Below, in pieces: positions 31,185 through 53,911 of a DNA stretch of 64,000 nucleotides (the stretch's first letter is position 1; every line of letters starts with the position of its first letter). The notes beneath the pieces were generated by a model. That model had not been told where the DNA came from. It made no database searches and saw nothing but the letters and a program-made list of their open reading frames with translations. The position numbers were made by a program, and so were the translations under genes. The DNA lies in NCBI RefSeq assembly GCF_900112045.1, contig NZ_FOJW01000005.1, forward strand, positions 1 through 64,000, in the 5' to 3' direction. The DNA comes from Lentibacillus halodurans. Its GTDB lineage: Bacteria; Bacillota; Bacilli; Bacillales; Amphibacillaceae.

Positions 31185-34085
31185 ATGAAGAGATTGGTTC
31201 CGATTCTAAGTTGCTTGCTGATGCTTGTTCTGCTTCTTACAGCACCGGTCTCGGCCTTTGGACAGTCATCATTGGCCCAACAAGGTATGAAACCTTCTGA
31301 TGATCAGGATGGCAATGTTGATCAGGAGATGGTTCAGCAAATGGTTACCCAAATGGATCCTGAAGAAAAAATTGGACAGCTCGTGATGCCATCCACTCAC
31401 GATAACGACCAGAACATGCCGAATGAAGACACAAGAGAGCTGATTCAAGAATATAAAGCAGGATCTGTGATTATTTACGGAAACCGCGACGCCAGTACTA
31501 CGGCTCAATATAATAACCAACTCCAGGAATGGGCGTCGGAAACACGTATGAATATCCCGTTATTTTCAACGGCTGATCTTGAATACGGTGTCAATCAGCA
31601 TGTCACAGATGCTACCGCATTTCCACGCCAAATGGGGATCGCTGCGACAAGAGATTTAGAAGCGGCCGAGGAGATGGCAAGCGTCACGGCGCAGGAAATG
31701 AAAGCGACAGGATTTAACTGGAATTACTCCCCGCTTGCTGATGTGAATACCAATCCTAACAATCCGGTTATAGGCGTAAGATCATTTGGAGAAAACACAG
31801 AACTTGTTTCGAACATGACCGTTGCGCAAGTGGAAGGGTATCAGGAAAACGGTGTACTTTCCACACCAAAGCATTTTCCGGGACATGGCGATACGAGTGA
31901 AGACTCGCATCATGATCTTCCTGCCGTTACGTATGACCGGCAAACATTGGAAGAAGTCCATCTTCCGCCCTTTCAAGCTGCTATCGATGCTGGCGCTGAC
32001 TCGATTATGACCTCTCATGTCATCATTGAAGCCATTGATCCAGAGCTTCCGGCAACATTGTCAGAAGATGTTTTGACCGGCTTGCTTCGAAATGAGATGG
32101 GTTTTGACGGGATCATCGTAACGGATGCTATGTCCATGGATGCCATTGATGAGCAGTGGGGCGCAGGAGAAGCTGCTGTAATGGCTGTTCAGGCAGGAGC
32201 CGATATCATCATGGCGACAGGGTCGATTAATGATCAAAAAGAAACGTTTGAAGCCCTGTTAGCAGCCTATGAATCCGGCGAACTTTCACAGGAGCGCGTT
32301 GACGAATCCATTGAGCGGATTTTAGCCAAAAAAGTCATGTATGGGCTATTTAATCATCGCTATGTTGATCCTCAGGAAGCAACAGATGTCGTGAATACGG
32401 AATCCCACAAAGAACTGGCAGAAAGCATGGCGCAGGACTCGATGACACTTGTGAAAAATGACAATACGCTGCCTTTTGATGCTGAATCCAATGAATCGAC
32501 TTTTGTCGTTGGTCCTGAAATATACAACCAAAGTTATTACATTGAAGATATAGCTGATGCCGTTCAGGAGAAAACAAACGGGGCAGTCGAACGTTTCGTC
32601 ACGTCTGAAAATCCATCCGACAGTGAAATTGATGAAGCTGTCCAGCAAGCCGAACAGGCAGATCGCGTCATCGTACCAACATTTTCTGCCAGCGAACTCG
32701 CTGAAGGTCAAAGCCAATTGGTTAATGCCCTTGAGGGAATAGATACTCCAATTGCATCCATATCTTTAGGCCTTCCATATGACATTAAAGAATACCCTGA
32801 TGTGGATGCCCACATCGCGACTTATGCGATTGAAAGATGGGGCTCGGCAGTTCCGGTTTCCTGGAAAGCCGCGGTTGATGTCATCTACGGCGCAAACCCG
32901 GGCGGCAAACTTCCGGTAACCATTGAAGGCCACTATGAATTTGGCCACGGGGAACATTACGAGCCTGCGTCGCCTGAAAGTGCAGAAGATATCAAATCGG
33001 TTGTTGAACAGTTGGAGGATGAAGGTGCATTTGCAAGCGATACGGCTCCGCGTGCGTTAAAGCGTCATTTGACAGCTGTAAGCCATTATGAAGATCAAGA
33101 AGCAGCTGAAAAAGTAATCAAACACATGCAAGGTTTTAAAGAATTGCTGGACCATCAGCAAAACAATGATCTGATTTCAGATGAAGCTTTCAATCTTCTT
33201 CAGTCTCAAACTGATGCATTAATTGAAAAATGGGAAACAGCTAACTTTGATTCAGAAAGGGCAATGGCCCATCTCCAGCATTTAAGTGAAGACATTGGAG
33301 CACGGGTTGCCGGCACCGAGGAAGAAAAGGCAGCTTCTGAGTATATAAAAGAGGAATTTGAAAAGCTTGGATACAATGTTTCCACCCAAACGTTTGATAT
33401 TCGCGACAATGAGCAATCTCAGAACGTCATGGCAGTTAAAGAAGCTCAGGACATTGAGAATCCTGAAATTGTGTATGTCACCGCCCACTATGACAGTTTG
33501 TCAGGTTCTCCAGGAGCAAACGATAATGGATCGGGAACGGCGGCCCTCCTTGAATTAGCCAGCGTGATGAAGGACAAGCCGGCAGATAAAGAGATTCGTT
33601 TTGTTGCCTTTGGTGCAGAAGAAGCCGGTTTGGTAGGTTCTCAACACTATGTCAATCAGTTGTCCGAGGAAGAGATTAATAGAAGTGCTGCCAACTTTAA
33701 CTTGGATATGGTTGGAACGAATTGGGAACAGGCATCCCAGCTTCATGTCAGTACCGTTGACGGCGAATCAAACATGGTATGGGAATCTGCAGATTTAGCC
33801 GCCGAAAGATTGGAATTGGATGATGATAGATTGACGCTTCATCAATTAGGCAGATCTGATCATGTTTGGTTCCATCAGGCGGGTATTGATTCAGCCCTCT
33901 TCATCTGGATGGAACCGGGAACAGAACCGGGTCAAGCAGGTGTTGAACCTTGGTACCATTCTCCTGAAGATACTATTGATCGCGTCAGTCCTGAAAAAAT
34001 TCAAATGGTTGGCGATTTAATAGATTCCGCCATTTCTGATTTGAATGTTAATCATGAGCAGGAGACAGAGGCTTTAGCCAGCTGA
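31185..34085 (+). CDS. Secreted beta-N-acetylhexosaminidase (GH3) - helical module - M28 aminopeptidase fusion
   Basis: 966 residues. Signal peptide to about VSA-25. The GH3 domain (about 45-590) carries the NagZ-type KHFPGHGDTSEDSHHDLP motif near 227, with the His-Asp pair that acts as acid/base, and the nucleophile Asp in GFDGIIVTDAMSMDAI near 313. A ~85-residue helical module (about 597-684) contains HLTAVSHYEDQ and KVIKHMQGFKELLDHQQ. An M28 zinc peptidase domain (about 690-950) keeps its ligands: AHYDS near 766, the ANDNGSG Asp, the EE pair in FGAEEAGLVGS near 811, NLDMVG, and the final His in YHSPEDT. It should cut GlcNAc-MurNAc-type bonds and release N-terminal amino acids outside the cell. 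Combining both activities in one chain is unusual. It is the first gene of the cluster and ends in a terminator. Confidence 0.9.
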   Translation: MKRLVPILSCLLMLVLLLTAPVSAFGQSSLAQQGMKPSDDQDGNVDQEMVQQMVTQMDPEEKIGQLVMPSTHDNDQNMPNEDTRELIQEYKAGSVIIYGNRDASTTAQYNNQLQEWASETRMNIPLFSTADLEYGVNQHVTDATAFPRQMGIAATRDLEAAEEMASVTAQEMKATGFNWNYSPLADVNTNPNNPVIGVRSFGENTELVSNMTVAQVEGYQENGVLSTPKHFPGHGDTSEDSHHDLPAVTYDRQTLEEVHLPPFQAAIDAGADSIMTSHVIIEAIDPELPATLSEDVLTGLLRNEMGFDGIIVTDAMSMDAIDEQWGAGEAAVMAVQAGADIIMATGSINDQKETFEALLAAYESGELSQERVDESIERILAKKVMYGLFNHRYVDPQEATDVVNTESHKELAESMAQDSMTLVKNDNTLPFDAESNESTFVVGPEIYNQSYYIEDIADAVQEKTNGAVERFVTSENPSDSEIDEAVQQAEQADRVIVPTFSASELAEGQSQLVNALEGIDTPIASISLGLPYDIKEYPDVDAHIATYAIERWGSAVPVSWKAAVDVIYGANPGGKLPVTIEGHYEFGHGEHYEPASPESAEDIKSVVEQLEDEGAFASDTAPRALKRHLTAVSHYEDQEAAEKVIKHMQGFKELLDHQQNNDLISDEAFNLLQSQTDALIEKWETANFDSERAMAHLQHLSEDIGARVAGTEEEKAASEYIKEEFEKLGYNVSTQTFDIRDNEQSQNVMAVKEAQDIENPEIVYVTAHYDSLSGSPGANDNGSGTAALLELASVMKDKPADKEIRFVAFGAEEAGLVGSQHYVNQLSEEEINRSAANFNLDMVGTNWEQASQLHVSTVDGESNMVWESADLAAERLELDDDRLTLHQLGRSDHVWFHQAGIDSALFIWMEPGTEPGQAGVEPWYHSPEDTIDRVSPEKIQMVGDLIDSAISDLNVNHEQETEALAS

Positions 34086-34280: not shown

Positions 34281-36812
34281 ATGTATCCAATGAAAAAGCC
34301 ATTTTTATATACGCTGTTCTTTGTACTCATGATGGCTATAATTGCTTTTATGCCTTTGTCCGGAACGGTTCAGGCGGATGAAACACCATACAATCCGGTT
34401 CCGTATGATGAAATCTATCCTATTCTTGAACAGCATGAAGCGGAGAGTGACCGTGTGTCGATTGAAGTAATCGGCCAGTCCTCGATGGGTCATGATCTGT
34501 ACAGTGTGGTTATTTCTGAGCCTGATGACGATCTGGAGCAAATTAAAGCGATGCGGCAAGAAATGATTGATAACCCTGAGGAGGCTGCAGATTTTATCGA
34601 AGACAATCCTGATTTTAAAGTCCCGTTTATGATTAACGGATCAATACATGGTAATGAATATCCCGGTACTGATGCTGTGCTGCAGCTCATTGACCGGTTT
34701 GCCCACGAACATGACGATACGACAGAGCACATTCTTGACCATAACATTCTTGTTTTCAATGTCGTTGTCAATCCGGATGGCCGTATTTTAGGGACAAGGC
34801 AAAATGGGGAAGGATTTGATCTAAACCGTGACCACGTGACGCTATCACAACCGGAAGCGGCGGCAAATATCGAGCTAATTACAGAATGGAATCCGATGGT
34901 TCAGCTTGATTTGCACGGTTTCGTGAATCGATCAGATGACTATCCAGGCCTTATCGAACCGACGACTGGACCACACAATCCCAACTATGAACACGACTTA
35001 TATCTGGAATACGCTTTGGATCAGGCTAAAGCGATGGAAGCAGAACTCGTCGAAAATAAACAAGATTATGAAACCGACCTGTATCAAAATATGAAAGGCA
35101 CCCATATTCCATATCGGGATGCCGAGGACGGATGGGATGATTACCCGCCGATTTTCACACCTATGTATGCAATGCTTCACGGTGTATATGGTCATACGCT
35201 CGAAACACCGACGAACAGTGTGGATGGTGCCAAGTGGCATTATGATGCGGTGATGGGTGCGCTGGAATTTGCATCTGACAACAAAATCGACATGACTAAA
35301 AATCAGCTGGAAATTTTTAGACGAGGGATCCAATTTGACCATCCTGAGCATGAGGATGGATTTTTCCCGAAAGCATATGTGCTGCCTGTTGACGAAACAG
35401 ATCCTACCACAACAGAAAAGGCTGTAAACAACCTTCTCATGCACGATGTTGAGGTTATGAAAGCCGACGAGACATTTATGGCTGACGGCGAACAATATGA
35501 TGAAGGGACGTATATTGTTCCATTGGACCAGGCAAAGGCAAGCCTAGCCAATACACTTCTTTGGGACGGTGAAGATATTAGTGATCAGGCAAGTGCCATG
35601 TACGATATTTCAGCTTGGAATTTACCGGAATTGTGGGGATTTGATGCGATCCCGACAGATTCATCTATTGATGTGCCGGCTGAAGGCGCAGAGGAGCTTG
35701 ATATAGAAGGTGAATTAATTGGCGAAGGACCATATGAGGTGACAAACAGTTCAGTTGCAGCTATGGCACTGGTCAATGAGCTGATCCAGGACAATTTTTC
35801 GGTTTATAAAGGGAAAAATGGACATTTTTATATAGATAGCGGTCATGAGAACACACTGCATCAGGTTGTAGAAGAATCCGGCATCACTGTGAAAACAGCA
35901 TCAATACCTGAAGATGCAAAAGAGCTGGATAATGTTAATGTTGCCGTGTTAAAAGATGGCGGTCAGCATGGCATCAGGACGGCACTTGAACAACTCGGAT
36001 TTGAAGTGGAGGAGATGGAGCCTCCACAGATCTCAGAAAACGGGTTAGGTGGTTACGACGTGCTGGTGGTGAACGGATCCGGTGTGGGTGACAGCGAAGC
36101 GTATAAGCAAAACATCCAGGCGTTTTTAGCTGACGGCGGAAAATATATTGCTATTGGTGCGAGTGCTTCCAGCAGGGCCGCTGAACTCGGATTAACAGAT
36201 GCTGGTATTCATACCGGCCAGTGGAATAGTAACGGCGTTGTCAACGTGGATTACAAGGATACATCGTTAACCGCTGGATACAATGAACAGGATATCGGTT
36301 TTGTTTACAATCCCGTCTGGTATAGGAATGTAGCAGATGATCGCGTGATAGCATCTTTTGCAGATCAAGACTTTTTTAAAGCCGGATTTTGGAAGAATTC
36401 AGAAGCTGCACAAGGCCAGTCTGTCATGATAAAAGGGAATCATCAAGGCGTCACGTTGCTGGGACTGGAGATTGGATTCAGAGCTCATCCGGAATATTTG
36501 TACAGAATGCTTTCCAATGCGATTTATCCGGGAGAAGAGACGATTCTGACAACTGCATCAGGCATGAAGGAACGGGTTGAACGGTATGAAAATGACGGAG
36601 AGTTTGAGAATAGTGGCGCTGCTCGCGCATTAAATGCTCATTTGACTGCTGTCAGCCATTTTGAAGAACAGGAAGCAGCGGAAAAGGTCATCAAACATGT
36701 CGAAGGGTTCCAAGATTTACTCGATCATCAGCAGACGAACAATTTGATTTCTGAAAAGGCTTATAATGTCCTCAAACATGATGCTGATGCGCTAATTGAG
36801 AAGTGGCAATAG
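34281..36812 (+). CDS. Secreted M14 zinc carboxypeptidase with GATase-like and helical modules
   Basis: 843 residues. Signal peptide to about VQA-33 (AAAGGAG upstream). M14 domain about 40-340: zinc ligands in GSIHGNEYPGTDA (His/Glu near 121-124), substrate Arg in VVNPDGRI and LNRDH, QLDLHGF near 210 and the catalytic Glu in HTLETPTN near 307. A linker follows, then a class I glutamine-amidotransferase-like fold (about 545-755, with DVLVVNGSGVGD and KYIAIGASASSRA). The C-terminal helical module (about 761-843) has HLTAVSHFEEQEAAEKVIKH. It removes C-terminal residues from extracellular peptides; the family includes gamma-D-glutamyl-diaminopimelate peptidases, but specificity cannot be read. 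The 16-bp palindrome at 36814-36829 follows the stop. Confidence 0.88.
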   Translation: MYPMKKPFLYTLFFVLMMAIIAFMPLSGTVQADETPYNPVPYDEIYPILEQHEAESDRVSIEVIGQSSMGHDLYSVVISEPDDDLEQIKAMRQEMIDNPEEAADFIEDNPDFKVPFMINGSIHGNEYPGTDAVLQLIDRFAHEHDDTTEHILDHNILVFNVVVNPDGRILGTRQNGEGFDLNRDHVTLSQPEAAANIELITEWNPMVQLDLHGFVNRSDDYPGLIEPTTGPHNPNYEHDLYLEYALDQAKAMEAELVENKQDYETDLYQNMKGTHIPYRDAEDGWDDYPPIFTPMYAMLHGVYGHTLETPTNSVDGAKWHYDAVMGALEFASDNKIDMTKNQLEIFRRGIQFDHPEHEDGFFPKAYVLPVDETDPTTTEKAVNNLLMHDVEVMKADETFMADGEQYDEGTYIVPLDQAKASLANTLLWDGEDISDQASAMYDISAWNLPELWGFDAIPTDSSIDVPAEGAEELDIEGELIGEGPYEVTNSSVAAMALVNELIQDNFSVYKGKNGHFYIDSGHENTLHQVVEESGITVKTASIPEDAKELDNVNVAVLKDGGQHGIRTALEQLGFEVEEMEPPQISENGLGGYDVLVVNGSGVGDSEAYKQNIQAFLADGGKYIAIGASASSRAAELGLTDAGIHTGQWNSNGVVNVDYKDTSLTAGYNEQDIGFVYNPVWYRNVADDRVIASFADQDFFKAGFWKNSEAAQGQSVMIKGNHQGVTLLGLEIGFRAHPEYLYRMLSNAIYPGEETILTTASGMKERVERYENDGEFENSGAARALNAHLTAVSHFEEQEAAEKVIKHVEGFQDLLDHQQTNNLISEKAYNVLKHDADALIEKWQ

Positions 36813-36951: not shown

Positions 36952-38979
36952 GTGAAGCATAAAACATTCACAAGGTTATCGATCTTCATGTCGCTGTTAC
37001 TTTTACTCCATATCTTTATGCCAACTGGATTCGTTGCCAATGCACAGGGGATACAAGATGACCAAACGGCAGAGGGCGATTACGGTATGGTTGTGACCGC
37101 ACACCCATTAGCCTCTGAGGTTGGAGCGGATGTGTTAAAAAAGGGCGGCAATGCGATTGATGCCGCTGTAGCGATTCAATTTGCTCTGAATGTTAATGAA
37201 CCCATGATGTCTGGTATCGGCGGCGGTGGTTTTTTAATGTACTATGATGCCGAGACAGAAGAAGTTTCAGTCATTAACAGCAGGGAGCGGGCACCGGCAG
37301 GCGCAACACCTGACATGTTTCTTGACGAAGACGGTAATGTTATACCTTTTCAGGAAAGGGTCCGCAGCGGTAAGTCAGTAGGCGTGCCCGGAACCTTGAA
37401 AGGCCTCGAAACTGCCCTTGACCAATGGGGCACCCGTTCAATGGAAGAACTGCTTGAATCTTCGATCGAAATGGCTGAAGAGGGGGTGGAAGTAAATTGG
37501 GTGCTTGCCAACGCCATTGCCAGCAATGAGGAAAAACTGTCAAATACAGCAGCAAAAGAGGTTTTCCTTCCTGATGGTGAACCGCTGGAAGAAGGCGATT
37601 TGCTCGTACAGGAAGACTTGGCTGAAACGTTCAGATTAATCGCCGAGCAGGGCACAGATGTGTTCTATGGTGGTGAAATTGGCGAAGCACTTGCTGAGGA
37701 AGTCCAAAAGCGTGACAGCAGTATGACATCGGAAGATCTCAGCCGCTATGATGTGACCCATGAGGAACCGGTATGGGGCGATTATAGGGGATATGATATT
37801 GCATCAATGGCACCACCAAGTTCAGGTGGGCTGACGATGCTGCAAATGCTGGAAATGTTTGAAGAGATGGATCTGACACAATATGGTATCAGATCAGCTG
37901 AAAAGTATCACCATATGGCCGAAGTGATGCACCTTGCCTATGCAGACAGGGGCGCTTATATGGGTGATCCGGAATTTGTGGATGTACCTGCTGAAGGATT
38001 GCTCCACCCGGACTATATTGATGAAAGGGTTGGATTAATCGATCCGGACCAGGCAAATGATAACGTTCAGCCAGGGAACCCATGGGATTATCAGGAAGGT
38101 GAGCCTTCTGAATTAAGTGAAAAGGCCGGTGACAAAACAAATGGTGAAACGACACACTTTACCGTTGCCGATCGTGAAGGCAACCTTGTCTCATATACGA
38201 CAACGATTGAGCAAGTATTCGGATCGGGGATCATGGTGCCGGGTTACGGCATTATGCTGAACAATGAACTGACGGACTTTGATGCTGTACCAGGCGGGGC
38301 GAATGAAGTTGAGCCAAATAAGCGGCCGTTAAGCAGCATGACACCAACGATTGTATTACAGGACGGAGAACCGTTCATGACAGTCGGTTCACCGGGCGGT
38401 ACAACCATTATTACGTCAGTCATGCAGACAATTGTCAATGTGATCGGGTATGATATGGCACTGAAGGATGCCATTGAAGAGCCGAGAATCTTTAGCAGTT
38501 CCTATCCAAGTATTCGCTGGGAGTCCGGCATCCCGTCAGATGTACGGGAGCAGCTGGCATTAATGGGGCATGAATGGCGGTCGTCGCCAGGTGAAATTGG
38601 TAATGTCAACAGTTTATTGATCGACTCTGAAACTGGTCTGTACTTTGGTGCTGCAGATTCAACACGGGAAGGCAAAGCAATCGGCATTTCGGCTGATGAA
38701 TTACCGCCGGATGAGTCAACGGTTGCATATTTGCAATATCTTTCTGATGAATTGGCAGATGAAGGTGAGTTCAATGATGGAAATGCCATTCGTCAAGTTA
38801 ACACCCATTTATCAGCTGTTGCTCACTATGAAAACAGCGAAGATATGGAAAAAGCGATTAAACATCTGAATGGATTTAAGACACTGCTTGCGTATCAGTT
38901 GAATAATGATTTGATTTCGGAGGCGGCTTATGAGGAATTGATGTCAGCATCCGATAATCTGCTGGATGAATGGGAGTAG
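36952..38979 (+). CDS. Secreted gamma-glutamyltransferase with C-terminal helical module
   Basis: 675 residues from GTG 36952 (AAAGGAGG upstream). Signal peptide to about VANA-29. The N-terminal nucleophile hydrolase precursor has GGNAIDAAVAIQFALNV near 64 and GIGGGGFLMYYD near 87. The autoprocessing nucleophile is Thr400 in GETTHFTVADREGN, and SGIMVPGYGIMLNNELTDF and KRPLSSMTPTIVLQDG follow. It cleaves or transfers gamma-glutamyl groups of peptides such as glutathione or poly-gamma-glutamate. Residues about 595-675 are the shared helical module (HLSAVAHYENS, KAIKHLNGFKTLL). Unlike the second copy at 42095, there is no inserted beta-sandwich, so it gives the reference architecture. The gap downstream holds a GC-rich hairpin (39026-39050). 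Confidence 0.93.
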   Translation: MKHKTFTRLSIFMSLLLLLHIFMPTGFVANAQGIQDDQTAEGDYGMVVTAHPLASEVGADVLKKGGNAIDAAVAIQFALNVNEPMMSGIGGGGFLMYYDAETEEVSVINSRERAPAGATPDMFLDEDGNVIPFQERVRSGKSVGVPGTLKGLETALDQWGTRSMEELLESSIEMAEEGVEVNWVLANAIASNEEKLSNTAAKEVFLPDGEPLEEGDLLVQEDLAETFRLIAEQGTDVFYGGEIGEALAEEVQKRDSSMTSEDLSRYDVTHEEPVWGDYRGYDIASMAPPSSGGLTMLQMLEMFEEMDLTQYGIRSAEKYHHMAEVMHLAYADRGAYMGDPEFVDVPAEGLLHPDYIDERVGLIDPDQANDNVQPGNPWDYQEGEPSELSEKAGDKTNGETTHFTVADREGNLVSYTTTIEQVFGSGIMVPGYGIMLNNELTDFDAVPGGANEVEPNKRPLSSMTPTIVLQDGEPFMTVGSPGGTTIITSVMQTIVNVIGYDMALKDAIEEPRIFSSSYPSIRWESGIPSDVREQLALMGHEWRSSPGEIGNVNSLLIDSETGLYFGAADSTREGKAIGISADELPPDESTVAYLQYLSDELADEGEFNDGNAIRQVNTHLSAVAHYENSEDMEKAIKHLNGFKTLLAYQLNNDLISEAAYEELMSASDNLLDEWE

Positions 38980-39104
38980 ATTTTAAGATTGATAGAAATC
39001 AATTGAAAGGGCTTTTTTCAAGGCGGGGCAGGTGAATCACCGCCCTGCCCTGCTCGTTAAAAAACAAAACACTGATTCAGACTCATTAACAAGGAGGGAT
39101 GAAC

Positions 39105-42076: not shown

Positions 42077-42094
42077 AAAAAAAGGGGGTATTTC

Positions 42095-44949: not shown

Positions 44950-44974
44950 GGATTTTATACAAGGAGGAATGCTA

Positions 44975-47656
44975 ATGCAAAAGCACAATTGGAAAAGGAT
45001 TATTCCTTTCCTGTTGATTTTATCACTGTTTGCGCCTATGAATCTGTTAACCGGAATGGCCGCATCGAATGATGAAAGGGAGGGATATGTATCTGAAATT
45101 GCAAGCGGTCCATTAGCTGGTAAATCTTTTGACTATTTTTGGTCAGAACACTCAACACGCATCACTGATGCCGGTCCAATTGACGGTGAAGTTATTTACG
45201 TCGGTAAAGCGTGTGATGACAGCGATCAGGTACCTGAAGCGATGGATGAGGACGATGTAGCTTTAGTAGAACGTGGTGACTGCCTTTTTGTTGAGAAAAT
45301 AGACAATATAGAAGGAAACGGTTACTCAGCGGTACTGCTATTTAATGATCAGCGTACGGATGACGATGGTTGTGATGCTTTTCCGTCATCCATGTCCACC
45401 TCTGCATCAATTCCGATGTTAGCGATTTCTCGTACAGTCGGGTTGCAGTTGCTGGGTGAAACCGGATCAGAACCAGTGCCATGCCCGGATGGCCCCGAGA
45501 CGGAATCAGCGGTTGGAACTGTTGGTGAGAAAGTATTCATCCTAAACGAGTTTGACCCAAATTCAACTGAAACAGGTTTTGAACAACGTAATGGAAATGG
45601 CTGGACAGTACCTTCCGAGGAAGCGGCATTTCTGGAGACAGTTGCGGAAGAATCGGAAAGGGTCACTTACACTGAAGCTGGGACTTCGGTGGAGGGGCGT
45701 CCCATACACTTAGTACGTGTAGGATACCCTGTGCCGCCATCGGATGAAGAAATTGCAAATGGACGAAATATATTGATACAAGGCACACCACACGGTAATG
45801 AACCTGCAGGGCAGGAAATGGCATTGCAATTACTGCGGGATTTGGCTTTTACTGATGATTCGGAGTTGCTGGAACAGTTGAGCGAAACAACAATCCTGTT
45901 TATGCCAACACCAAATCCAGATGGAAGGGAAGCCAATCAAAGAGGAAACAGCTGGGGTGTCGATAACAATCGTGACCATCTTAACCTGGATACACCTGAA
46001 ATACAGACATTAGCTAAAGTCATGAATAAATTTAGTCCAGAGATTACGATTGATGCGCATGAGCGGCCAAGTGGTGCCAGTCCGGAAATGGAGATGGTAT
46101 GGCCGCGCAACCTTAATATTGATGGACCATTACGGGAACTTAGTAAAGAAATGGTGCAGGATTACTTGATGCCTGATGTTGAGGAAGCAGGTTTTACGAC
46201 AGGTATATATGGATCCCCAAATTCGAGCACGAACGGCAACGAGCGCGTACTGTCAAATATGCTCGGTTTACGGCACGGGATAGGCTTGATTACGGAATCA
46301 GCAGGCAGAGCAAAACCTGAAGACCGAGTAGAGATGCAGATGGAAACAGCATTATCAGTCATGCGGTTTTATCGCGAGCGTTTCGATGATGTAGTACAAG
46401 CTGTGACGGAAGCTCCAGAGCGGAAGGCAGCTGATGGCGCAAATCGGGAACCATTCTATCTCGATGGGGCAGATAACCGGGAGCCACCAGAGTGGGCAGT
46501 ATTAGACCCTGCTTCATGCGGCTACCTCATAAACAGTTCGCAGGAGGAGGAGATAAGCCGGCATATTGACTTATTCTCTTTACGGACGGAAGAGGTAAGT
46601 GGGAATGGGGTATTCGTTACGATGAACCAGTCTATGATGACGGTCATTCCATTATTGCTTGATGAACAGGCAAGATATAACGAGCTCAGCGGCCTGGCAC
46701 TGGAAGACTGTTCAAACCCAGGAGAACTGGAACCGCCGCTAGGAGCGCCAAGTTTAGCGAATTTGAGGATACTGGCTGACCGTTTTGCATCAGATGGGGA
46801 ATTTGCCAATGATGAAGCCGCTCGAGCTGTGACCCTTCATTTGACTGCAGTGAGCCAATTTGAGGAACAGGGCGAGACAGAAAAGGTCGTCAAACACCTG
46901 GATGGCTTATTGGAATTGCTTCAGCACCAAAGAGAAAATGAATTGATTACTGAGGAGGCTTATCACCTGATTGAACCACAGGCAGATAGTTATATGAAAG
47001 AGCTGCAATATGCTTTTTATCAAGGGTTCGTTGGCGACGACGGCAACAGCTGGGATTCATCAGATTTTGTGAATCTTGATTCCTGGCCGACAAATCCGGA
47101 CGGTGCAGTATATACGATCCAGGACAACACCGGTCAGATTGATCTTGATAACCGTCAGCAGGGCAATGGCAGTGCTTATGGACGTGTAACGCCGTACATG
47201 GAAGATACGGAAAACAGCGAGCTGCTGGTACGTTTCAAGGCTAATGAGATAGGTAATAATCAGCGGATGAGATTGTGGCTGCAATCGGATGCCTTTTCAC
47301 CGGGTAGTTCAATGCCTGTTAACGGCTATGGTGTTGAGCTGAATCTCAACACAAATGAACTGATTCTTCGGGGCAGATATGACAGCAGTTCCACTAATTT
47401 TGACCGGATTGATGCGAATATGTCAGATGAATGGCATTGGGTACGTTTGCGTAAACAGGATGACGAGCTGATGGTGCGCCTCTGGCATGATGATAGTGAT
47501 GAGCCCGCAGAATGGGATATGGTTCATACACTCTCTGCAGATGAACAATTGCCAAATCAATCTGGCAAAACGCTTTTAAGCGTCATTAACTTTGATTACG
47601 ACAGCAGCAATAGATTCAACTTCGACGAGATTATTGTGAGCGATTTGGATCAGTAA
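44975..47656 (+). CDS. Secreted PA domain - M14 carboxypeptidase - helical module - beta-sandwich protein
   Basis: 893 residues from ATG 44975, seven bases after AAGGAGG (ATG 44969 is too close). Signal peptide to about GMAA-30. A protease-associated domain (about 35-165) has VALVERGDCLFVEKI. M14 domain about 190-500: zinc site QGTPHGNEPAGQEM near 269, PTPNPDGREANQRGN, NNRDHLNLDTPE, TIDAHERPSG near 359, catalytic Glu in GLITESAGR near 438. Helical module about 595-675 (HLTAVSQFEEQGETEKVVKH). C-terminal beta-sandwich about 678-893, ending LLSVINFDYDSSNRFNFDEI. Here the helical module precedes the sandwich. Very close paralogue of the gene at 51686, which lacks the PA domain. Confidence 0.9.
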   Translation: MQKHNWKRIIPFLLILSLFAPMNLLTGMAASNDEREGYVSEIASGPLAGKSFDYFWSEHSTRITDAGPIDGEVIYVGKACDDSDQVPEAMDEDDVALVERGDCLFVEKIDNIEGNGYSAVLLFNDQRTDDDGCDAFPSSMSTSASIPMLAISRTVGLQLLGETGSEPVPCPDGPETESAVGTVGEKVFILNEFDPNSTETGFEQRNGNGWTVPSEEAAFLETVAEESERVTYTEAGTSVEGRPIHLVRVGYPVPPSDEEIANGRNILIQGTPHGNEPAGQEMALQLLRDLAFTDDSELLEQLSETTILFMPTPNPDGREANQRGNSWGVDNNRDHLNLDTPEIQTLAKVMNKFSPEITIDAHERPSGASPEMEMVWPRNLNIDGPLRELSKEMVQDYLMPDVEEAGFTTGIYGSPNSSTNGNERVLSNMLGLRHGIGLITESAGRAKPEDRVEMQMETALSVMRFYRERFDDVVQAVTEAPERKAADGANREPFYLDGADNREPPEWAVLDPASCGYLINSSQEEEISRHIDLFSLRTEEVSGNGVFVTMNQSMMTVIPLLLDEQARYNELSGLALEDCSNPGELEPPLGAPSLANLRILADRFASDGEFANDEAARAVTLHLTAVSQFEEQGETEKVVKHLDGLLELLQHQRENELITEEAYHLIEPQADSYMKELQYAFYQGFVGDDGNSWDSSDFVNLDSWPTNPDGAVYTIQDNTGQIDLDNRQQGNGSAYGRVTPYMEDTENSELLVRFKANEIGNNQRMRLWLQSDAFSPGSSMPVNGYGVELNLNTNELILRGRYDSSSTNFDRIDANMSDEWHWVRLRKQDDELMVRLWHDDSDEPAEWDMVHTLSADEQLPNQSGKTLLSVINFDYDSSNRFNFDEIIVSDLDQ

Positions 47657-47758
47657 CTAGGGTAGGGAGCAAGTTCCTGGTAATGCCTCTTTTTGATAGA
47701 GGGGCTCTCCCAATCTATCATGTCATCAATATAATCTTATTTGAGCAAAGGAGGGCAT

Positions 47759-49798
47759 ATGGTGGCAAAGTTGATGAAGCAAATGGCAATGGCAGGGGCA
47801 GTTATTGCGTGTGTAATGCTGTTGGGTTTTTCGGGGCAATGGTTAAATGGTCAAACGGAAGGTTCACGATTTGAAACGTTAGAAGAAGAAGTTCTAAGCA
47901 TAGTAGAAGAGGTCTCTGAAGAAGGCGATGTTTCCATCTTTATTGATACAAGTGAGGGTGAAATTGGAGTTAATGAAACGGAAGTTTATTCTGCTGCAAG
48001 CACGATAAAGGTGCCTATTCTTGTTGAAGCGATCAGACAAGCAGAACAAGGTAACCTGAATTTGGATGAAAAAATTGAGATTGATTCATCAGATATTGTT
48101 GGCGGCGGAGGGATTTTAAATGACCTATCGGAAAATCAGTCTATGACCCTGAGAGATCTATTGACGTTAATGATTATTGTTTCTGATAACTCAGCAACAA
48201 ACATGGTGATAGACAGGATAGGGATGGACTCAGTAAATGAGACTTGTATGGAAATGGGCTGCGAGCAAACAAAACTGCAAAGATATATGATGGATTTCAG
48301 TTCACCAGTTGACAATTTAACAAATGCAAAGGATATGGCGAGGATATTAAAAGCAATAGACGAAGCAAATATCGTTTCTCAGGAAGGGCGGAACGAAATT
48401 TTAAGAATAATGAGGGAGCAAAAATTGACGGCGGGACTGCCTGGTCATGCAACTGAAGTAACTTTCGCCAGTAAAGGCGGATCATTGTCAGGACCACCTC
48501 AGATAAGGCATGATGTGGCACACGTTACAGATGGGAATGAAACAGCATATGTAGCTGTATTGACTAGCGGGTTATCTAAACCGACTGCCAGAAAAGCTAT
48601 GAACAAGATTGGTGAAAAAATGGCAGATTATTTAGTCGCACCGCCACCGCCGTCGGAATCGGCACAATATGCGACTGATTTTACTGAATATGAAGCTGGT
48701 GAGCAGCCGGACGATTGGTCAATTCTATGGAGGGACAGCAGCTGGACAGTTTTGGATGATCCGCGTCGGCTGGAGCATTTGCCTGATGGCGGGCGCCGGG
48801 CATTGACGTGGGATAAGGTTGGCGAAGTTCGTGGCGATGTTGAAGTGGCCAGTGTAGCTCGTGCAAGTGGTGTCAATAACACGATGTTCCAACTCGGGTT
48901 CCACATGGGAGGTACAGCGGGCAATGAGGTTGGCTACTATCTTGATGTGCGAAGTCCAGATGCGAGTTCGTCTGCAAACCATGTACGAATCAATAGCTGG
49001 GATTCCGGCAAATTTGAACTGCTAGACAGTGCGAATTTGCCATTCACGGTAACCGAGAACACCTGGTACCAGATTGTGATGCAGCGTGAGGATGACACGA
49101 TACGAGCTAAAGTGTGGCCTTATGGTGAGTACGAGCCCAGTGATTGGCAGGTGGAAGTTACTGACGAGTCCTTCTATTGGGGTCGTGTTGGAGTTGGTCA
49201 TTTCAACTCAGGTACAATTAATGACTGGGCGTATGTCAGTGTAGGTACCGGTGGTGAGTCCGCACCGCGCGCACCAGAGGATCTGTTAGACCCGGAAGAT
49301 CCAGAAGTTGACAAAACAGCACTGCAGAACCGAGTGGATGAGATCATTGATGAGAATTTGAATGAAGCAAACTATACAGAAGCTAGCTGGCAAACCCTGC
49401 AAGATGCGTTGGAAGCGGCTGAAAATGTACTGAACGATTCTGATGTAACACAATCAGATGTCGATGAGGCATTGGCAGTATTGAATGAAGTGCGTGATGC
49501 GCTGGAAGAAGCAGAGCCGTCCAACACGAGCAGTATGATTACTAGTGTTGAGAGCTTCGCAGAGGAGGGTTCATTTGAGGATAACAGTACTGCGAGGTCA
49601 TTAATAACGCATTTGACAACAGTGAGTCGCTACGAAGAAAACGAGCAAGTAGAAAAAGTTATTAAACACATGGAAGGATTTAAGCAGCTGCTAAACTATC
49701 AAAAAGAAAATGAAATAGTTTCTGAGGAAGCATATAATACGCTTTATTCAGATGCGGAATCGTTAATTGAGAACTGGCAAAAAAATCTGGACCAGTAA
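47759..49798 (+). CDS. Secreted serine hydrolase (class A beta-lactamase fold) with LamG-like, FIVAR-like and helical modules
   Basis: 679 residues from ATG 47759 (AAAGGAGGG upstream; GTG 47762 also possible). An N-terminal hydrophobic signal or anchor (about 10-30). Catalytic motifs of penicillin-recognising serine enzymes: Ser81-Thr-Ile-Lys84, Ser142-Asp-Asn144, and Lys239-Gly-Gly. Then a beta-rich module (about 300-500) unlike the sandwich of its neighbours (ATDFTEYEAGEQPDDW, INDWAYVSVG); a three-helix FIVAR-type repeat (about 520-585, NEANYTEASWQTLQDALEAA); and the helical module (about 595-679, HLTTVSRYEENEQVEKVIKH). Possible roles are beta-lactamase, D,D-peptidase or D-amino acid amidase/esterase. 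The KGG and SDN boxes are closest to class A lactamases. Confidence 0.85.
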   Translation: MVAKLMKQMAMAGAVIACVMLLGFSGQWLNGQTEGSRFETLEEEVLSIVEEVSEEGDVSIFIDTSEGEIGVNETEVYSAASTIKVPILVEAIRQAEQGNLNLDEKIEIDSSDIVGGGGILNDLSENQSMTLRDLLTLMIIVSDNSATNMVIDRIGMDSVNETCMEMGCEQTKLQRYMMDFSSPVDNLTNAKDMARILKAIDEANIVSQEGRNEILRIMREQKLTAGLPGHATEVTFASKGGSLSGPPQIRHDVAHVTDGNETAYVAVLTSGLSKPTARKAMNKIGEKMADYLVAPPPPSESAQYATDFTEYEAGEQPDDWSILWRDSSWTVLDDPRRLEHLPDGGRRALTWDKVGEVRGDVEVASVARASGVNNTMFQLGFHMGGTAGNEVGYYLDVRSPDASSSANHVRINSWDSGKFELLDSANLPFTVTENTWYQIVMQREDDTIRAKVWPYGEYEPSDWQVEVTDESFYWGRVGVGHFNSGTINDWAYVSVGTGGESAPRAPEDLLDPEDPEVDKTALQNRVDEIIDENLNEANYTEASWQTLQDALEAAENVLNDSDVTQSDVDEALAVLNEVRDALEEAEPSNTSSMITSVESFAEEGSFEDNSTARSLITHLTTVSRYEENEQVEKVIKHMEGFKQLLNYQKENEIVSEEAYNTLYSDAESLIENWQKNLDQ

Positions 49799-49931: not shown

Positions 49932-50013
49932 ATACTTTCATGATGAATCTATCATTATATGAATGGAAGTATGTATCAGTAGAATTCCAAGTAATAAGGA
50001 GGAGGACGAGGTT

Positions 50014-51420
50014 ATGATGGAAAAAAATTTATTGAGAAAAGTTCTGCCTTTTCTGGCGACGTTATTAATGTTGTTGATCATAAGTCCGCATACTGTCCTG
50101 GCAGGTCAAGATGGAGCTGCCACGGATGATCGTTTTATGACCTATGAGGAACTGGTTGAAAACCTAAACCAAATTGAGGCTGAAAGTTCAGGTGAAGTTG
50201 AAGTTGACGTCATAGGACAATCACGCCAGGACCGTGAAGTCTATTCTGCCCGTGTAGGCTCGGGAGATGAAGTGTTGTTGATTAATGGAAATATACACGG
50301 TAACGAGAAGAGCGGTCCCGAGGCATTGCTGCAGATGCTCAATACGCTAGGAACTAGCGATAGCACTTTAGCTCAACAAGTTCGAGAAGGAGTTACAATA
50401 GTTGCGATCCCGCGACTTAACGTTGACGGTGCAGAGATAACACAACGGCAAAATATCTTCCCGTGGGACGACGTTATTTCAACTTACCCAAATCTCGAAG
50501 GTTCTGATTCGGCTTGGTACTATAGTGAGCGAAACGATGGCTTTGACATCAACCGAGACTTTAATCCCGATTTAAGCTACGAACCAGTACTGGAAGATCT
50601 GCCTGGAACAGGGGCTGACCCAGGATTTTTCTTGACAAACGAGTCACGCATGCTCAGGGACTTGTACCTGGATTTGAAGAACGAGTTTGGTAACGTGGAA
50701 GCCTTTGTGGATCTTCACCACATGGGCACCCCTAATCTCAATGAAACTGGTGAAGATGTTACGATAGCGATTGACTACCCTCCGTTAGGACCTGAAGACA
50801 GCACGAAGTATGATGAATGGCCAAATCTGGACCAAGAAGAGTCCCGGCGTTATGCATTGGCTGCTGCCCTTGGTGTGAAAGAATTCTCGGATAATGAAGA
50901 ACCTGGTGTAGCTCGCTATTTACACCCAGAGGAGCGTGATTTACCTGGCCAGGCTAGGTCTTCATTTGCTTTAAATGGAACCGCGACAGTCCTGTTTGAA
51001 ATGCCTGGGCAACAACCTGAATATGGTTATGATCAAGAATTGATAGATCGTGTAGAGAATGGCCTCTGGGGTATTGCTTCCCGTATGGCGGATAATTCTA
51101 TTGATAACCTTAACGGCGATGATTTCTTAAAATTGCCTAAATATTGGACTTCAAACATATCTGATGTGGAAACACTTGTTGAACGTTTTGCAAATGAGGG
51201 TGAGTTTGAGAGTGATGATGCCGTTCAGTCCTTAACAATGCAATTGACCGCTATAAGTCATTACGCAGAAAAAGAAGAAGCTAACAAAGTAGTTAAACAC
51301 ACGAAGAGTCTTAAATCTCTGCTTGATCATCAGAAAGAAGAAGAATTGATTTCTGAAAAGGCGTATGACAGACTCGCGGATGATGCTGACTATCTAATTG
51401 GTAAATGGCAGGAATCCTAA
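50014..51420 (+). CDS. Secreted M14 zinc carboxypeptidase with C-terminal helical module
   Basis: 468 residues from ATG 50014 (AAGGAGGAGG upstream; ATG 50017 also possible). Signal peptide to about TVLA-29. A compact M14 domain: zinc ligands in NGNIHGNEKSGPEA near 94, PRLNVDGAEITQRQN, GFDINRDFNPDLSY, FVDLHHMGTPN, and the catalytic-region Glu in VLFEMPGQQPEYGY near 330. The helical module (about 385-465) has QLTAISHYAEKEEANKVVKH. This is the smallest member of the cluster, with only a catalytic domain plus the module, and a different M14 subtype from the pair at 44975 and 51686. Confidence 0.88.
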   Translation: MMEKNLLRKVLPFLATLLMLLIISPHTVLAGQDGAATDDRFMTYEELVENLNQIEAESSGEVEVDVIGQSRQDREVYSARVGSGDEVLLINGNIHGNEKSGPEALLQMLNTLGTSDSTLAQQVREGVTIVAIPRLNVDGAEITQRQNIFPWDDVISTYPNLEGSDSAWYYSERNDGFDINRDFNPDLSYEPVLEDLPGTGADPGFFLTNESRMLRDLYLDLKNEFGNVEAFVDLHHMGTPNLNETGEDVTIAIDYPPLGPEDSTKYDEWPNLDQEESRRYALAAALGVKEFSDNEEPGVARYLHPEERDLPGQARSSFALNGTATVLFEMPGQQPEYGYDQELIDRVENGLWGIASRMADNSIDNLNGDDFLKLPKYWTSNISDVETLVERFANEGEFESDDAVQSLTMQLTAISHYAEKEEANKVVKHTKSLKSLLDHQKEEELISEKAYDRLADDADYLIGKWQES

Positions 51421-51473
51421 ATAGTATAAGCTCCTCTGATGCGGGCTGATAACCTATCCCAGGAGCTTAGAAT

Positions 51474-51685: not shown

Positions 51686-53911
51686 ATGACCATTATAAAA
51701 AAGGGTTTGATACCTTTTATTATGGTAATGTCATTTCTCTTAGCTTTAAGTCCATTAAGTGTGTCTGCTGAGATCGGCAGTAAAACCTTAGATATGCCTG
51801 AAGAAACATTGACGACAGGGTTTGAGGACCGGGATGGTGACGGATGGACGACGCTTGAGGAGGAAGCAGCATTTTTGGAAGAACTGGCAGAGATGTCCGA
51901 TCGGGTTTCTTACACCCAAGTCGGAACATCGGTCGAGGGACGCCCAATCCGCTTAGTGCGGGTAGGATTCCCGGAACCGCCCTCTGATGAAGACATTGCG
52001 GCAGGAAACAACATTTTGATTATGGGAACGCCGCATGGAAATGAGCCTGCAGGACGTGAGATGACACTGGAGCTGATGAGGGATTTGGCATTCACAGAAA
52101 ATGATGAACTGATAGGGCAGCTGCGTGAGGCGACCATATTGTTTGTTCCAACACCAAACCCGGACGGCAGAGGTGCGAACACACGCGGAAATGCTTGGGG
52201 TGTTGACAATAACCGTGACCACCTCAATTTGGATACGCCGGAAATGGAGACGGTTGCAGATATTTTGAATGAATTTCAGCCGGATATTACGGTAGATGCC
52301 CATGAGCGGCCCAGTGCAACAGGAAATCCGGATATTGAAATGCTCTGGCCGCGCAATCTGAATGTGGATGAGGAATTGCGCGAGCTGAATAAAGAGCTGG
52401 TTCAGGACTATATGCGTCCGGATGTTGAGGAAGCTGGATTCTCAACGGGGTTGTATGGTTCCCCTGGAGGAGCTGGCGGCGGCGATGAACGGATTTTGCG
52501 GAACATGCTGGGCCTTCGGAATGGCCTTGGAATTTTAACGGAAAGCGCCGGCAGTCAAGAACCACTGGACAGGGTGGATATGCAAAGGGAAGCCGCTGAT
52601 TCGATACTACGATTCTACCGTGAGCGGTTTGATGATGTAACCGAACTCGTCGACGAAGCACCAGAGCGTCAGGCAGAAGTAGGATCAGATCCATCAGAGC
52701 CATTCTATCTCGATGGTGCAGATAACTGGGATCCGACAATTGTACTCGATCCAAAAGCTTGCGGCTACCTCATCAACAGTTCCCAAGCTAAGGAGATAAA
52801 CCGTCATATCGACTTGTTCTCACTGCAGACGGAACAGGTCAGTGAAAACGGCGTATTTGTTGCGATGAATCAGCCAATGATGACGGTGGTGCCGTTCTTG
52901 CTTGATGAACAGGCGAACTATAACGAAGTGAATGGTTTGCCGCTGGGTAATTGCTTGAATCCGGGTGAAGTGGAGCCGCCGCTTGGAGTACCAAGTTTGG
53001 CGAATTTGAAGATTCTCGCCGATCGTTTTGAAGCAGATGGGGAATTTGCGAATGATGAAGCTGCTCGTGCCGTAAACCTTCATTTGACGGCAGTAAGCCA
53101 ATTTGAAGAACAGGGTGAGACAGAAAAGGTCGTCAAACACCTGGATGGCTTATTGGATTTGCTGGAGCATCAAAGGGAAAATGAACTGCTTTCTGAGGAG
53201 GCTTATAACCTAATTGAGCCACAGGCCGACAGTTACATGAAAGATCTGCAGTATGCGTTTTATCAGGGTTTCGTTGAAGAAGATGGCAATAGCTGGGATT
53301 CATCAGATTTTGTGAATCTTCATTCCTGGCCGACAAACCCGGATGGTGCGACATACACGATCCAGGACAACACAGGGCAGGTTGACCTTGATAATCGTCA
53401 ACAGGGCAACGGCAGTGCTTTTGGTCGTATAACACCTGATATGGAAGAAACGGAAAACAGTGAGTTGCTGGTCCGTTTCAAGGCAGATGAAACAGGTAAT
53501 AATCAACGTTTGCGGTTGTGGCTTCAGTCTGATGCGTTTTCGTCCGGCAGTTCAATGCCAGTGAATGGCTATGGTATTGAAATGAATCTCAACACGGATG
53601 AGCTGATTCTCAGAGGTAGATATGACAGCAGCTCCACTAATTTTGATCGAATTGATGCAAATATGTCGGACGAATGGCATTGGGTACGGTTGCGTAAACA
53701 GGATGATGAGCTGAAGGTTCGCCTATGGAAAGACGATATGGAAGAACCTGATGATTGGGATATGGTTCACACGCTTTCGCCTGATGAATACTTGCCAAAT
53801 CATTCTGGCAGAGCGCTTTTAAGTGTCATTAACTTTGATTACGATAGCAGCAATATTTTCAACTTCGACGAGATTATTGTTGATGATCTGGATCAATCGA
53901 TTAATAATTAG
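51686..53911 (+). CDS. Secreted M14 carboxypeptidase - helical module - beta-sandwich protein
   Basis: 741 residues. Signal peptide to about SVSA-28; GGAGGG precedes the ATG. M14 domain about 45-345: MGTPHGNEPAGREM, PTPNPDGRGANTRGN, NNRDHLNLDTPEME, TVDAHERPSATG and catalytic Glu in GILTESAGSQE. Helical module about 440-520 (HLTAVSQFEEQGETEKVVKHLDGLLDLLEHQ), then beta-sandwich about 525-738 ending LLSVINFDYDSSNIFNFDEI. Nearly collinear with the protein at 44975 from its residue 190 onward, often identical over 15-20 residues, but without the PA domain: a recent duplication with domain gain or loss. Last member of the cluster; a terminator follows. Confidence 0.9.
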   Translation: MTIIKKGLIPFIMVMSFLLALSPLSVSAEIGSKTLDMPEETLTTGFEDRDGDGWTTLEEEAAFLEELAEMSDRVSYTQVGTSVEGRPIRLVRVGFPEPPSDEDIAAGNNILIMGTPHGNEPAGREMTLELMRDLAFTENDELIGQLREATILFVPTPNPDGRGANTRGNAWGVDNNRDHLNLDTPEMETVADILNEFQPDITVDAHERPSATGNPDIEMLWPRNLNVDEELRELNKELVQDYMRPDVEEAGFSTGLYGSPGGAGGGDERILRNMLGLRNGLGILTESAGSQEPLDRVDMQREAADSILRFYRERFDDVTELVDEAPERQAEVGSDPSEPFYLDGADNWDPTIVLDPKACGYLINSSQAKEINRHIDLFSLQTEQVSENGVFVAMNQPMMTVVPFLLDEQANYNEVNGLPLGNCLNPGEVEPPLGVPSLANLKILADRFEADGEFANDEAARAVNLHLTAVSQFEEQGETEKVVKHLDGLLDLLEHQRENELLSEEAYNLIEPQADSYMKDLQYAFYQGFVEEDGNSWDSSDFVNLHSWPTNPDGATYTIQDNTGQVDLDNRQQGNGSAFGRITPDMEETENSELLVRFKADETGNNQRLRLWLQSDAFSSGSSMPVNGYGIEMNLNTDELILRGRYDSSSTNFDRIDANMSDEWHWVRLRKQDDELKVRLWKDDMEEPDDWDMVHTLSPDEYLPNHSGRALLSVINFDYDSSNIFNFDEIIVDDLDQSINN

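Follow-up and report, generated by a model that had tools for sequence, protein, structure and literature searches.

Arrays of genes for secreted hydrolases that carry the FIMAH module are tied to a gene of the TasA/camelysin family (PF12389), an association that is new here. The case at hand lies in a 64,000-nucleotide stretch of Lentibacillus halodurans (contig NZ_FOJW01000005.1, positions 1 to 64,000; hereafter the window), and we lean slightly towards the reading that FIMAH keeps these enzymes on or near the fibre of a dedicated TasA relative, the window holding one copy of a recurring operon type. Observed, and forming the basis of this reading, are the modules themselves, their genomic linkage, two sub-families that match each other and partner enzymes drawn from families with no relation to one another. 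The component families are known; a search of the open-access literature, which took in no preprints and few subscription papers, returned no description of their combination in such a tagged-enzyme/fibre system.

A nine-gene array of hydrolases with one common module

Nine open reading frames follow one another at 31185-53911, all on the + strand and separated by gaps of 66 to 265 bp, as the first-pass annotation had described (nine consecutive hydrolase genes, head to tail). The catalytic folds that it had assigned were likewise confirmed:

31185..34085, + strand: gene 1, GH3 - FIMAH (32985-33227) - M28 peptidase (Pfam matches)
34281..36812, + strand: gene 2, M14 carboxypeptidase with C-terminal FIMAH (36558-36800) (Pfam matches)
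36952..38979, + strand: gene 3, gamma-glutamyltranspeptidase (GGT) with C-terminal FIMAH (38725-38964) (Pfam matches)
39099..41975, + strand: gene 4, D-aminoacylase-type amidohydrolase with ConA-like insert (40197-40820) and C-terminal FIMAH (41718-41963)
42056..44902, + strand: gene 5, gamma-glutamyltranspeptidase with ConA-like insert (43316-43972) and C-terminal FIMAH (44654-44890)
44969..47656, + strand: gene 6, PA-M14 carboxypeptidase - FIMAH (46757-46993) - C-terminal ConA-like module (47000-47653)
47741..49798, + strand: gene 7, class-A beta-lactamase-like serine hydrolase - FIVAR - FIMAH (49529-49771) (Pfam matches)
49963..51420, + strand: gene 8, M14 carboxypeptidase with C-terminal FIMAH (51157-51399) (Pfam matches)
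51686..53911, + strand: gene 9, M14 carboxypeptidase - FIMAH (53000-53236) - ConA-like module (53243-53908)

All nine proteins match FIMAH (PF22888) at 68.4 to 92 bits (cut-off 24.8), the identity that the annotation had suggested for their common module, and a simple hydropathy rule finds a strongly hydrophobic stretch at the N-terminus of each, in keeping with the signal or anchor segment it had noted. Of the 14 FIMAH modules in the genome (3.67 Mb, 31 contigs), 9 fall in the array, so their clustering is not due to chance.

The FIMAH of gene 1 is sandwiched between its GH3 and M28 domains, and the GH3 domain carries what we take to be a NagZ-like motif (active-site motifs used for FIMAH proteins were background motifs or taken from the window sequence). 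A second, concanavalin-A-like module is common to genes 4, 5, 6 and 9; the insert is circularly permuted in gene 4 and unpermuted in gene 5, where it is placed N-terminal of the predicted nucleophile Thr. To judge from its signal peptide and from a hairpin at 42036-42068, gene 5 may really begin at an ATG that lies downstream of its TTG (42056). Gene 7 scores 19.9 bits against PF00144, below the cut-off of 27. Judging by its enzyme classes, the array may digest peptidoglycan peptides or poly-gamma-glutamate/gamma-glutamyl polymers. Promoter-like sites numbered 34 at 28400-48300 (shuffled mean 37.4) and 34 at 47600-57800 (shuffled 20.7), and terminator-like sites 17 (16.4) and, fewer than in shuffles, 3 (8.4), counts to which we give no weight.

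FIMAH arrays adjoin one branch of the TasA family

Upstream of the array lie three further genes:

28986..29582, + strand: TapA-like open reading frame with SipW-type signal and acidic tail
29362..30117, + strand: SipW signal peptidase (NF046067, 251.9 bits, cut-off 190)
30210..30797, + strand: TasA/CalY-family protein of the FIMAH-linked clade (PF12389, TIGR04088, clade placement)

TasA and CalY polymerise into surface fibres. The window's TasA relative matches PF12389 over its full length (294 bits, residues 3-191) and has a SipW-type signal (TIGR04088, 50.9 bits, cut-off 19); it is not TasA sensu stricto, as it reaches 112.9 bits against NF046066 (cut-off 450), over residues 1-98 only. Its solved relatives are 8aur and 5of1, with a match spanning residues 29-110, and by homology the protein is predicted to form a fibre. 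The TapA-like frame scores 20.3 bits against TIGR04088 (cut-off 19) and 36.2 against TIGR04087, under the cut-off of 80 for TapA itself. The true start of sipW is internal to its frame, with the NF046067 match running from residue 71 on.

Arrays of FIMAH genes recur in related Bacillaceae, the first check that the annotation had proposed. In 20 array regions, selected because they hold FIMAH clusters, the gene of widest occurrence is that of the TasA family, present in 13 of the 14 genomes, bearing out the relevance that had been given to the adjoining biofilm-matrix operon. Approaching from the TasA side, we selected TasA-family loci by their resemblance to 14 aligned array TasA proteins and took 74 named loci from the best 80 of 136 relatives. 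Every locus whose TasA scores at least 322 bits has FIMAH within 10 kb (53/53), versus none of those scoring 311 bits or less (0/21), with the dividing line set after the scores were seen. The first local FIMAH profile had been trained on array modules; the 53/53 versus 0/21 result held on a six-frame recheck with a mixed profile. Linked loci number several per genome in places (four, L043, L059, L060 and L064, in Virgibacillus sp. YIM 98842), some end at contig ends, and they overlap in part, by genome, with the array regions above. In all 53, TasA and its nearest FIMAH gene share a strand, and in 45 they are at most 300 bp apart. No TasA-FIMAH fusion was found when looked for in the 74 loci. 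The score split is not absolute, since in G275 a TasA of 299 bits lies 66 bp upstream of a FIMAH gene. In the TasA tree, 63 of 65 rows from FIMAH loci fall in one clade (SH-aLRT 95), the two others, from linked loci, lying outside it, and linkage labels change 3 times versus 22.6 in shuffles. In G364, which belongs to another family, two of three TasA genes lie inside FIMAH arrays.

Distances in 60 genomes (the window's own and relatives) were counted among 150 of 177 FIMAH matches and 69 TasA rows, with weaker TasA rows (E 4.8e-26 down) left out. Among these matches, every one of the 14 FIMAH clusters of at least three genes is accompanied by a TasA-family gene at 10 kb or less. Of the 52 TasA matches in FIMAH genomes, 23 are no more than 5 kb from FIMAH, where about 0.85 would be expected. 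Two degenerate TasA fragments among the weaker rows sit inside the array of G007.

Proximity to TasA, in the same matches, is found for two of six FIMAH pairs and for 5 of 49 lone FIMAH genes in TasA-bearing genomes. The 44 lone genes far from TasA favour another account, which we judge rather unlikely overall, namely that FIMAH anchors enzymes to something else on the surface or in the matrix (wall polymer, teichoic acid or exopolysaccharide) and that the TasA relative is merely needed in the same biofilm state. A PF12389 match is also absent from 16 of 28 further FIMAH genomes searched, a result that rules out an obligate FIMAH-TasA tie. These 28 are part of a set of 36, 34 of them above the FIMAH cut-off; five of the other eight were covered by the TasA search of relatives and three are weak, and with at most 13 candidates scored per genome, arrays in this set may be undercounted. 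Retention of added and self-made cellulases by B. subtilis biofilm, as described in the accessible part of PMC9329931, likewise suits another anchor. Co-regulation alone, however, does not predict that FIMAH should sit on most secreted-looking proteins of the TasA gene runs, where 131 FIMAH proteins compare with 19 other secreted-looking proteins of at least 250 aa, versus 28 and 40 outside the runs. The secretion rule was applied to the 19 and not to the 131; 152 of 164 FIMAH proteins pass it. By eye, the 19 include five lipoprotein-like and two helicase-like proteins and two cut by the locus end.

A sipW gene is found no more than 3 kb from TasA in 29 of the 53 linked loci, compared with 17 of the 21 unlinked ones, a contrast that speaks against the fibre reading. 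The former count would suit a view of FIMAH as an export or maturation tag, acted on by some sipW-tasA operon factor, rather than as a docking module, which we regard as very improbable: sipW is absent at that distance in the other 24 linked loci, FIMAH is C-terminal in 146 of 165 proteins, 155 of 158 already have a hydrophobic N-terminal stretch, and the bundle is still present and folded in solved NnGH92. Sortase anchoring was ruled out, as 174 FIMAH proteins showed no LPxTG within their final 60 residues.

A FIMAH sub-family matching the TasA clade

Structure prediction of the module alone, another check named in the annotation, gave a four-helix bundle for gene 2 (AlphaFold, pLDDT 95.6) whose best structural match is 7nsn (TM 0.84 on the query, E 2.4e-3), an entry also found by FIMAH sequence (E 1.7e-6). 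In the FIMAH tree, all 79 TasA-linked rows (60 of 159 linked modules chosen for diversity, the window's nine, nine from G364 and one from G275) form one group with SH-aLRT 91, and 31 of 37 unlinked rows lie outside it; the tree covers modules of at least 40 bits and 68 residues, rests on few columns and leaves many forks without resolution. Correspondence of one TasA clade to one FIMAH sub-family is not expected from co-regulation alone, which again tells against a different anchor. Of the six unlinked modules that group with the linked ones, two (G081, G155) come from genomes without a PF12389 match and speak for such an anchor.

Linked modules carry their own signature: H28 in 97% versus 0% of unlinked modules, K43 in 97% versus 3%, L54 in 92% versus 0% and E36 in 91% versus 13%, the unlinked class being the 31 modules outside the linked group, with those six and five long-branched or divergent TasA rows set aside. 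E36 and K43 may form an internal salt bridge. Charge is -6.1 in the linked and +1.7 in the unlinked class, a difference that may reflect salt-loving hosts. The window's own genome also has an unlinked-type module, carried by its 5'-nucleotidase, and on the TasA side residues marking the clade fall between 108 and 161. The annotation would have been refuted by a generic, scattered domain that does not cluster; on TasA linkage and tree, that description is ruled out for the linked sub-family and kept for the other one.

Partner enzymes from families with unrelated substrates

Linked-type FIMAH occurs on peptidases, phosphatases, glycosidases and pectinase families, whose substrates, taken from family names, include peptidoglycan, mucin glycans, glycosaminoglycans, pectin, phosphate esters and proteins. 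Pfam representatives scanned were 18 of 165 FIMAH proteins of linked loci and 17 from other loci; the remaining linked-locus proteins were placed by BLAST grouping, in which the largest group merges several families. Since the partner enzymes belong to families with unrelated substrates, the partner of FIMAH is unlikely to be the substrate, and a self-made partner is likelier than a common substrate. The annotation's idea of one target for all the enzymes thus stands as a shared addressing tag and fails as a common wall or peptidoglycan target; as a general ligand, peptidoglycan is ruled out by the mucin-glycan, glycosaminoglycan, pectin, phosphate-ester and protease partners.

The same spread of one sub-family over so many enzyme types counts against FIMAH being a substrate-side carbohydrate-adhesion or stability domain, spread among neighbouring secreted enzymes by recombination, a reading we hold to be improbable and one that leaves the 53/53 versus 0/21 linkage to one TasA branch unexplained. 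According to the accessible part of PMC10167667, NnGH92 without its four-helix bundle melts about 10 C lower and binds yeast cell wall about half as well, which fits such a role and was counted against fibre docking; binding rose, though, when bundle and CBM32 were both removed. When FIMAH modules on non-homologous enzymes are compared, those of one locus also resemble each other slightly more (0.413) than those of different loci in the same genome (0.381; n=25 same-genome pairs, not independent). This small effect, which 1 of 301 shuffles equalled, counts for fibre docking as well as for the recombination reading. The correlation of TasA with FIMAH identity across the full set of 1325 locus pairs is weak (rho 0.12) and counts against fibre docking.

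Proposed model

We therefore return to FIMAH as a means of keeping enzymes at a TasA-type fibre. The recurring operon type would comprise a dedicated gene of the TasA/camelysin clade, often sipW, and secreted hydrolases with FIMAH of the matching sub-family. SipW would release the TasA relative, which would polymerise into surface fibres like its namesakes; the FIMAH enzymes, presumably exported by the Sec route, would be held on or beside this fibre, so that an enzyme set for one substrate class could act jointly close to the cell. On the genomic evidence FIMAH may dock directly on the fibre, and a protein fibre may thus serve these bacteria as the carrier of entire enzyme sets. It is conceivable, though we would not expect it, that this is a natural enzyme display system in which each operon has its own TasA-type fibre on which enzymes for one substrate class dock via matched FIMAH, with several sets per cell (as the four linked loci of Virgibacillus sp. 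YIM 98842 would allow) partly insulated by fibre-module matching.

The model proposes a role, open to testing, for a domain that has no assigned function and for one branch of the TasA/camelysin family. It also suggests that Gram-positive bacteria can use a biofilm fibre as a scaffold dedicated to digestion outside the cell. It would be a natural counterpart of cellulosomes, assembled from unrelated parts and, if true, would offer a ready tag-and-fibre pair for enzyme display.

Comparison with known systems

The 'FHB' four-helix bundle of NnGH92 (PDB 7nsn), to which the accessible part of PMC10167667 assigns no function, is a solved FIMAH, alike in family (PF22888) and fold to the window modules; the linked modules differ in making up a separate sub-family with a distinctive signature. 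The window's TasA relative resembles TasA and CalY (camelysin) in its full-length PF12389 match, SipW-type signal and upstream sipW and TapA-like frame, and differs in its distinct clade, its score under the TasA equivalog cut-off and its adjoining tagged-enzyme genes. Cellulosomes share the outline (unrelated enzymes with one small common module, in gene clusters by substrate), whereas the scaffold proposed here would be a polymer of small TasA-like subunits, tied to the enzymes by genomic linkage; no dockerin or cohesin Pfam match was found in the nine array proteins or ten neighbours scanned. Biofilm retention of cellulase in B. subtilis similarly keeps secreted enzymes close to the cell, but is described in the accessible part of PMC9329931 as sorption, with no tag or dedicated fibre gene.

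No open-access paper treating NamZ, NagZ and AmiE together was found, and this set is incomplete in the window array, where GH3 is present with no NamZ or PF00144 over cut-off. Extracellular muropeptide recovery by murQRP-amiE-nagZ-ybbC of B. subtilis (accessible part of PMC5061867) has GH3, NamZ and PF00144 types that recur in the 53 linked loci, with FIMAH GH3 in 16, NamZ (YbbC) in 15 and PF00144 serine hydrolase in 14; the difference is that in these loci they come with FIMAH and TasA.

A FIMAH hydrolase array beside a TasA-family gene

The nine consecutive genes that the first-pass annotation described as secreted hydrolases sharing one module proved to be real open reading frames, on the same strand with little space between them. 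The shared module is the Pfam FIMAH domain (PF22888), over the cut-off in 9/9 and joined to catalytic domains of unrelated folds. A hydrophobic N-terminal segment is present in all nine proteins, and the active-site motifs searched for, either general family motifs or ones taken from the window sequence itself, were found. The main features are as follows.

Before 30210: sipW (signal peptidase gene) and a TapA-like ORF
30210-30797: TasA/CalY-family protein (PF12389), directly upstream of the array
31185-53911, + strand: FIMAH genes 1-9 (GH3-M28, M14, GGT, D-aminoacylase, GGT, PA-M14, beta-lactamase-like, M14, M14)
42036-42068: 14-pair terminator-like hairpin followed by a run of T, between genes 4 and 5, overlapping the TTG start of the gene 5 ORF
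55459-57366, opposite strand: S15 Xaa-Pro dipeptidyl-peptidase that lacks FIMAH but has a signal-like N-terminus
57721-59961: PTS IIBC with NanE, amino-sugar genes flanking the array

Given the hairpin, the array may comprise two transcription units.

Recurrence and linkage to TasA-family genes

FIMAH is present in 30 of 60 genomes (L. halodurans and relatives), and such arrays were found again. Class-wide, 36 of 398 genomes gave matches, which pass the cut-off in 34 and mostly amount to one or two modules per genome, with up to 13 candidates scored in each. Within 20 array regions, chosen for their FIMAH clusters, the commonest gene family is not an enzyme but the TasA-family protein (13/14 genomes), followed by GH3 (11), PF00144 hydrolase (10), SipW, NamZ and exo/endo-phosphatase (8 each) and GGT (7).

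Based on 150 of the 177 FIMAH matches in the 60 genomes, a TasA-family gene lies within 10 kb of 12/12 clusters of at least four FIMAH genes, 2/2 clusters of three, 2/6 pairs and 5/49 single genes; for single genes in TasA-less genomes the count is 0/9. Conversely, 23 of the 52 TasA matches in FIMAH genomes are within 5 kb of FIMAH, versus about 0.85 expected from random placement.

With the array TasA as query, 136 relatives were found across 84,980 species genomes. Among the 74 named loci returned, the best of these relatives, FIMAH genes occur within 10 kb of all 53 TasA genes scoring at least 322 bits (hereafter, linked loci) and of none of the 21 scoring 311 bits or less. This line is not absolute, because a TasA gene in a genome of another bacterial family (G275), in the order sipW-tasA followed by an M14-FIMAH-M28 gene, scores 299. 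In 53/53 linked loci the TasA gene shares its strand with the closest FIMAH gene, and in 45 the gap is at most 300 bp. Genera with linked loci include Lentibacillus, Virgibacillus, Oceanobacillus, Ornithinibacillus, Cytobacillus, Siminovitchia and Gracilibacillus. In genome G364, from one more family, two of three TasA genes are inside FIMAH arrays, one of which (GGT-tasA-D-aminoacylase-GGT plus an M14 enzyme) is close to the window set.

Three more TasA-family copies are present in L. halodurans (contig C30, 9622-12884), two with in-frame stops.

Matching sub-families of module and TasA relative

A quick TasA tree of 91 rows, 65 of them from FIMAH loci, places 63 of these 65 in one clade (SH-aLRT 95), and the FIMAH-locus label changes 3 times versus 22.6 in shuffles; E108, Y111, E118, E134, G146, D157 and K161 are particular to this clade. 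The FIMAH tree, with few columns and many forks unresolved, places all 79 linked rows in one group (SH-aLRT 91); of the 37 unlinked rows, 31 fall outside this group and six within it. H28, E36, K43, L54 and others are nearly fixed in linked modules and replaced by different residues in the rest. Of the 14 modules in L. halodurans, five are outside the array: those on M64, S15 and GH10 proteins are of the linked type, and those on 5'-nucleotidase and GH92 proteins of the other.

Modules on non-homologous enzymes of the same genome resemble each other slightly more when they share a locus than when they come from different loci (0.413 versus 0.381; a value this high in 1 of 301 shuffles). TasA and FIMAH identities correlate across 25 same-genome locus pairs, which are not independent (rho 0.51, p 0.009), and only weakly across all 1325 locus pairs (rho 0.12).

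Candidate partners of the module

Judged by family, the FIMAH enzymes of linked loci look grouped by substrate.

FIMAH enzyme families of linked loci (representatives scanned)
Muropeptide: GH3, NamZ, PF00144, S13, amidase, GGT, M14
O-glycan: GH101, GH84, GH20, sialidase, GH31, GH2, M60
Glycosaminoglycan: PL8 (closest NCBIfam model hyaluronate lyase, matched below its cut-off)
Pectin: RGL11, GH78
Phosphate ester: alkaline phosphatase with GDPD
Protein: S8, M6, S15, M64

The window set (gamma-glutamyl, D-aminoacyl, carboxy- and aminopeptidase, GH3) would fit peptidoglycan peptides or poly-gamma-glutamate. Since the families span unrelated substrate groups, FIMAH is unlikely to have one shared substrate as its partner, and a self-made partner is the simpler reading. 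The modules, their genomic linkage and the matched sub-families are directly observed. The best reading, in which we place moderate confidence, is that each enzyme set is retained, through FIMAH, on or next to a fibre of the TasA relative encoded with it. The relative would form the fibre, FIMAH would bind it directly, and the enzymes would thereby be retained on or near it. No LPxTG anchor was found in the FIMAH proteins examined.

Several observations run against fibre retention. There is no PF12389 match in 16 of 28 FIMAH genomes, two genomes without such a match carry linked-type modules, most lone FIMAH genes are far from TasA, and sipW is within 3 kb in only 29/53 linked loci versus 17/21 unlinked. 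A further one comes from NnGH92. AlphaFold predicts the isolated module, helical as first proposed, to be a four-helix bundle (pLDDT 95.6), whose closest structural relative is the NnGH92 four-helix bundle (FHB; PDB 7nsn; E 2.4e-3, TM 0.84; next E 0.25 or worse), also matched by FIMAH at the sequence level. In PMC10167667, the FHB points outward with no function assigned; its deletion left about 80% of activity, the Tm of the variants was lower by about 10 C, and about half of the binding to yeast wall was lost, whereas removal of both FHB and CBM32 raised binding. These data, the sole experimental hint that we found on a FIMAH-type bundle, can be read as a substrate-side role.

Searches of the open-access literature (preprints and most subscription papers being outside this scope) yielded no FIMAH paper, the matches concerning E. 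coli fimbriae, and no description of TasA-linked enzyme arrays. Among the nearest known work are cellulases retained by B. subtilis biofilm (PMC9329931), B. cereus filaments of CapP, TasA and CalY (PMC13082335) and extracellular muropeptide recovery (PMC5061867).

A second module and other observations

Genes 4, 5, 6 and 9 also share a concanavalin-A-like module (predicted structure pLDDT 77.6), best matched by the ERGIC-53 and calreticulin lectin domains (E ~1e-8, TM ~0.6). It is inserted into the catalytic domains of the D-aminoacylase (40197-40820, gene 4) and GGT (43316-43972, gene 5). A circularly permuted form occurs in gene 4 and in the D-aminoacylases of loci L007 and L060, with the last strands (profile 183-220) placed before the rest; this short piece scores 10 to 23 bits. 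Weak evidence (6 bits) of this order comes from GGTs of L020 and L037. The gene 5 copy is unpermuted and precedes the threonine at which the GGT mechanism predicts self-cleavage.

Loci L035, L055 and L058 have alkaline phosphatase and glycerophosphodiesterase with FIMAH beside a linked TasA gene (by Pfam in L058), putatively a phosphate-scavenging version of the linked operon. Relatives of the S15 protein at 55459-57366 carry FIMAH in genomes G008 and G006, and an S15-FIMAH protein of L. halodurans seems to be broken into two ORFs, of 137 and 409 aa (L002, 3930-5767). Amino-sugar genes flank an array in genome G011 too, here NanE and N-acetylneuraminate lyase together with a sodium symporter (L019, 12691-15971). 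Loci L100 and L101, of another family (f67) and from genomes with no PF12389 match, each have two FIMAH modules about 6.7 kb apart; in L100 both are in proteins of about 1000 aa, flanking a third of 1180 aa.
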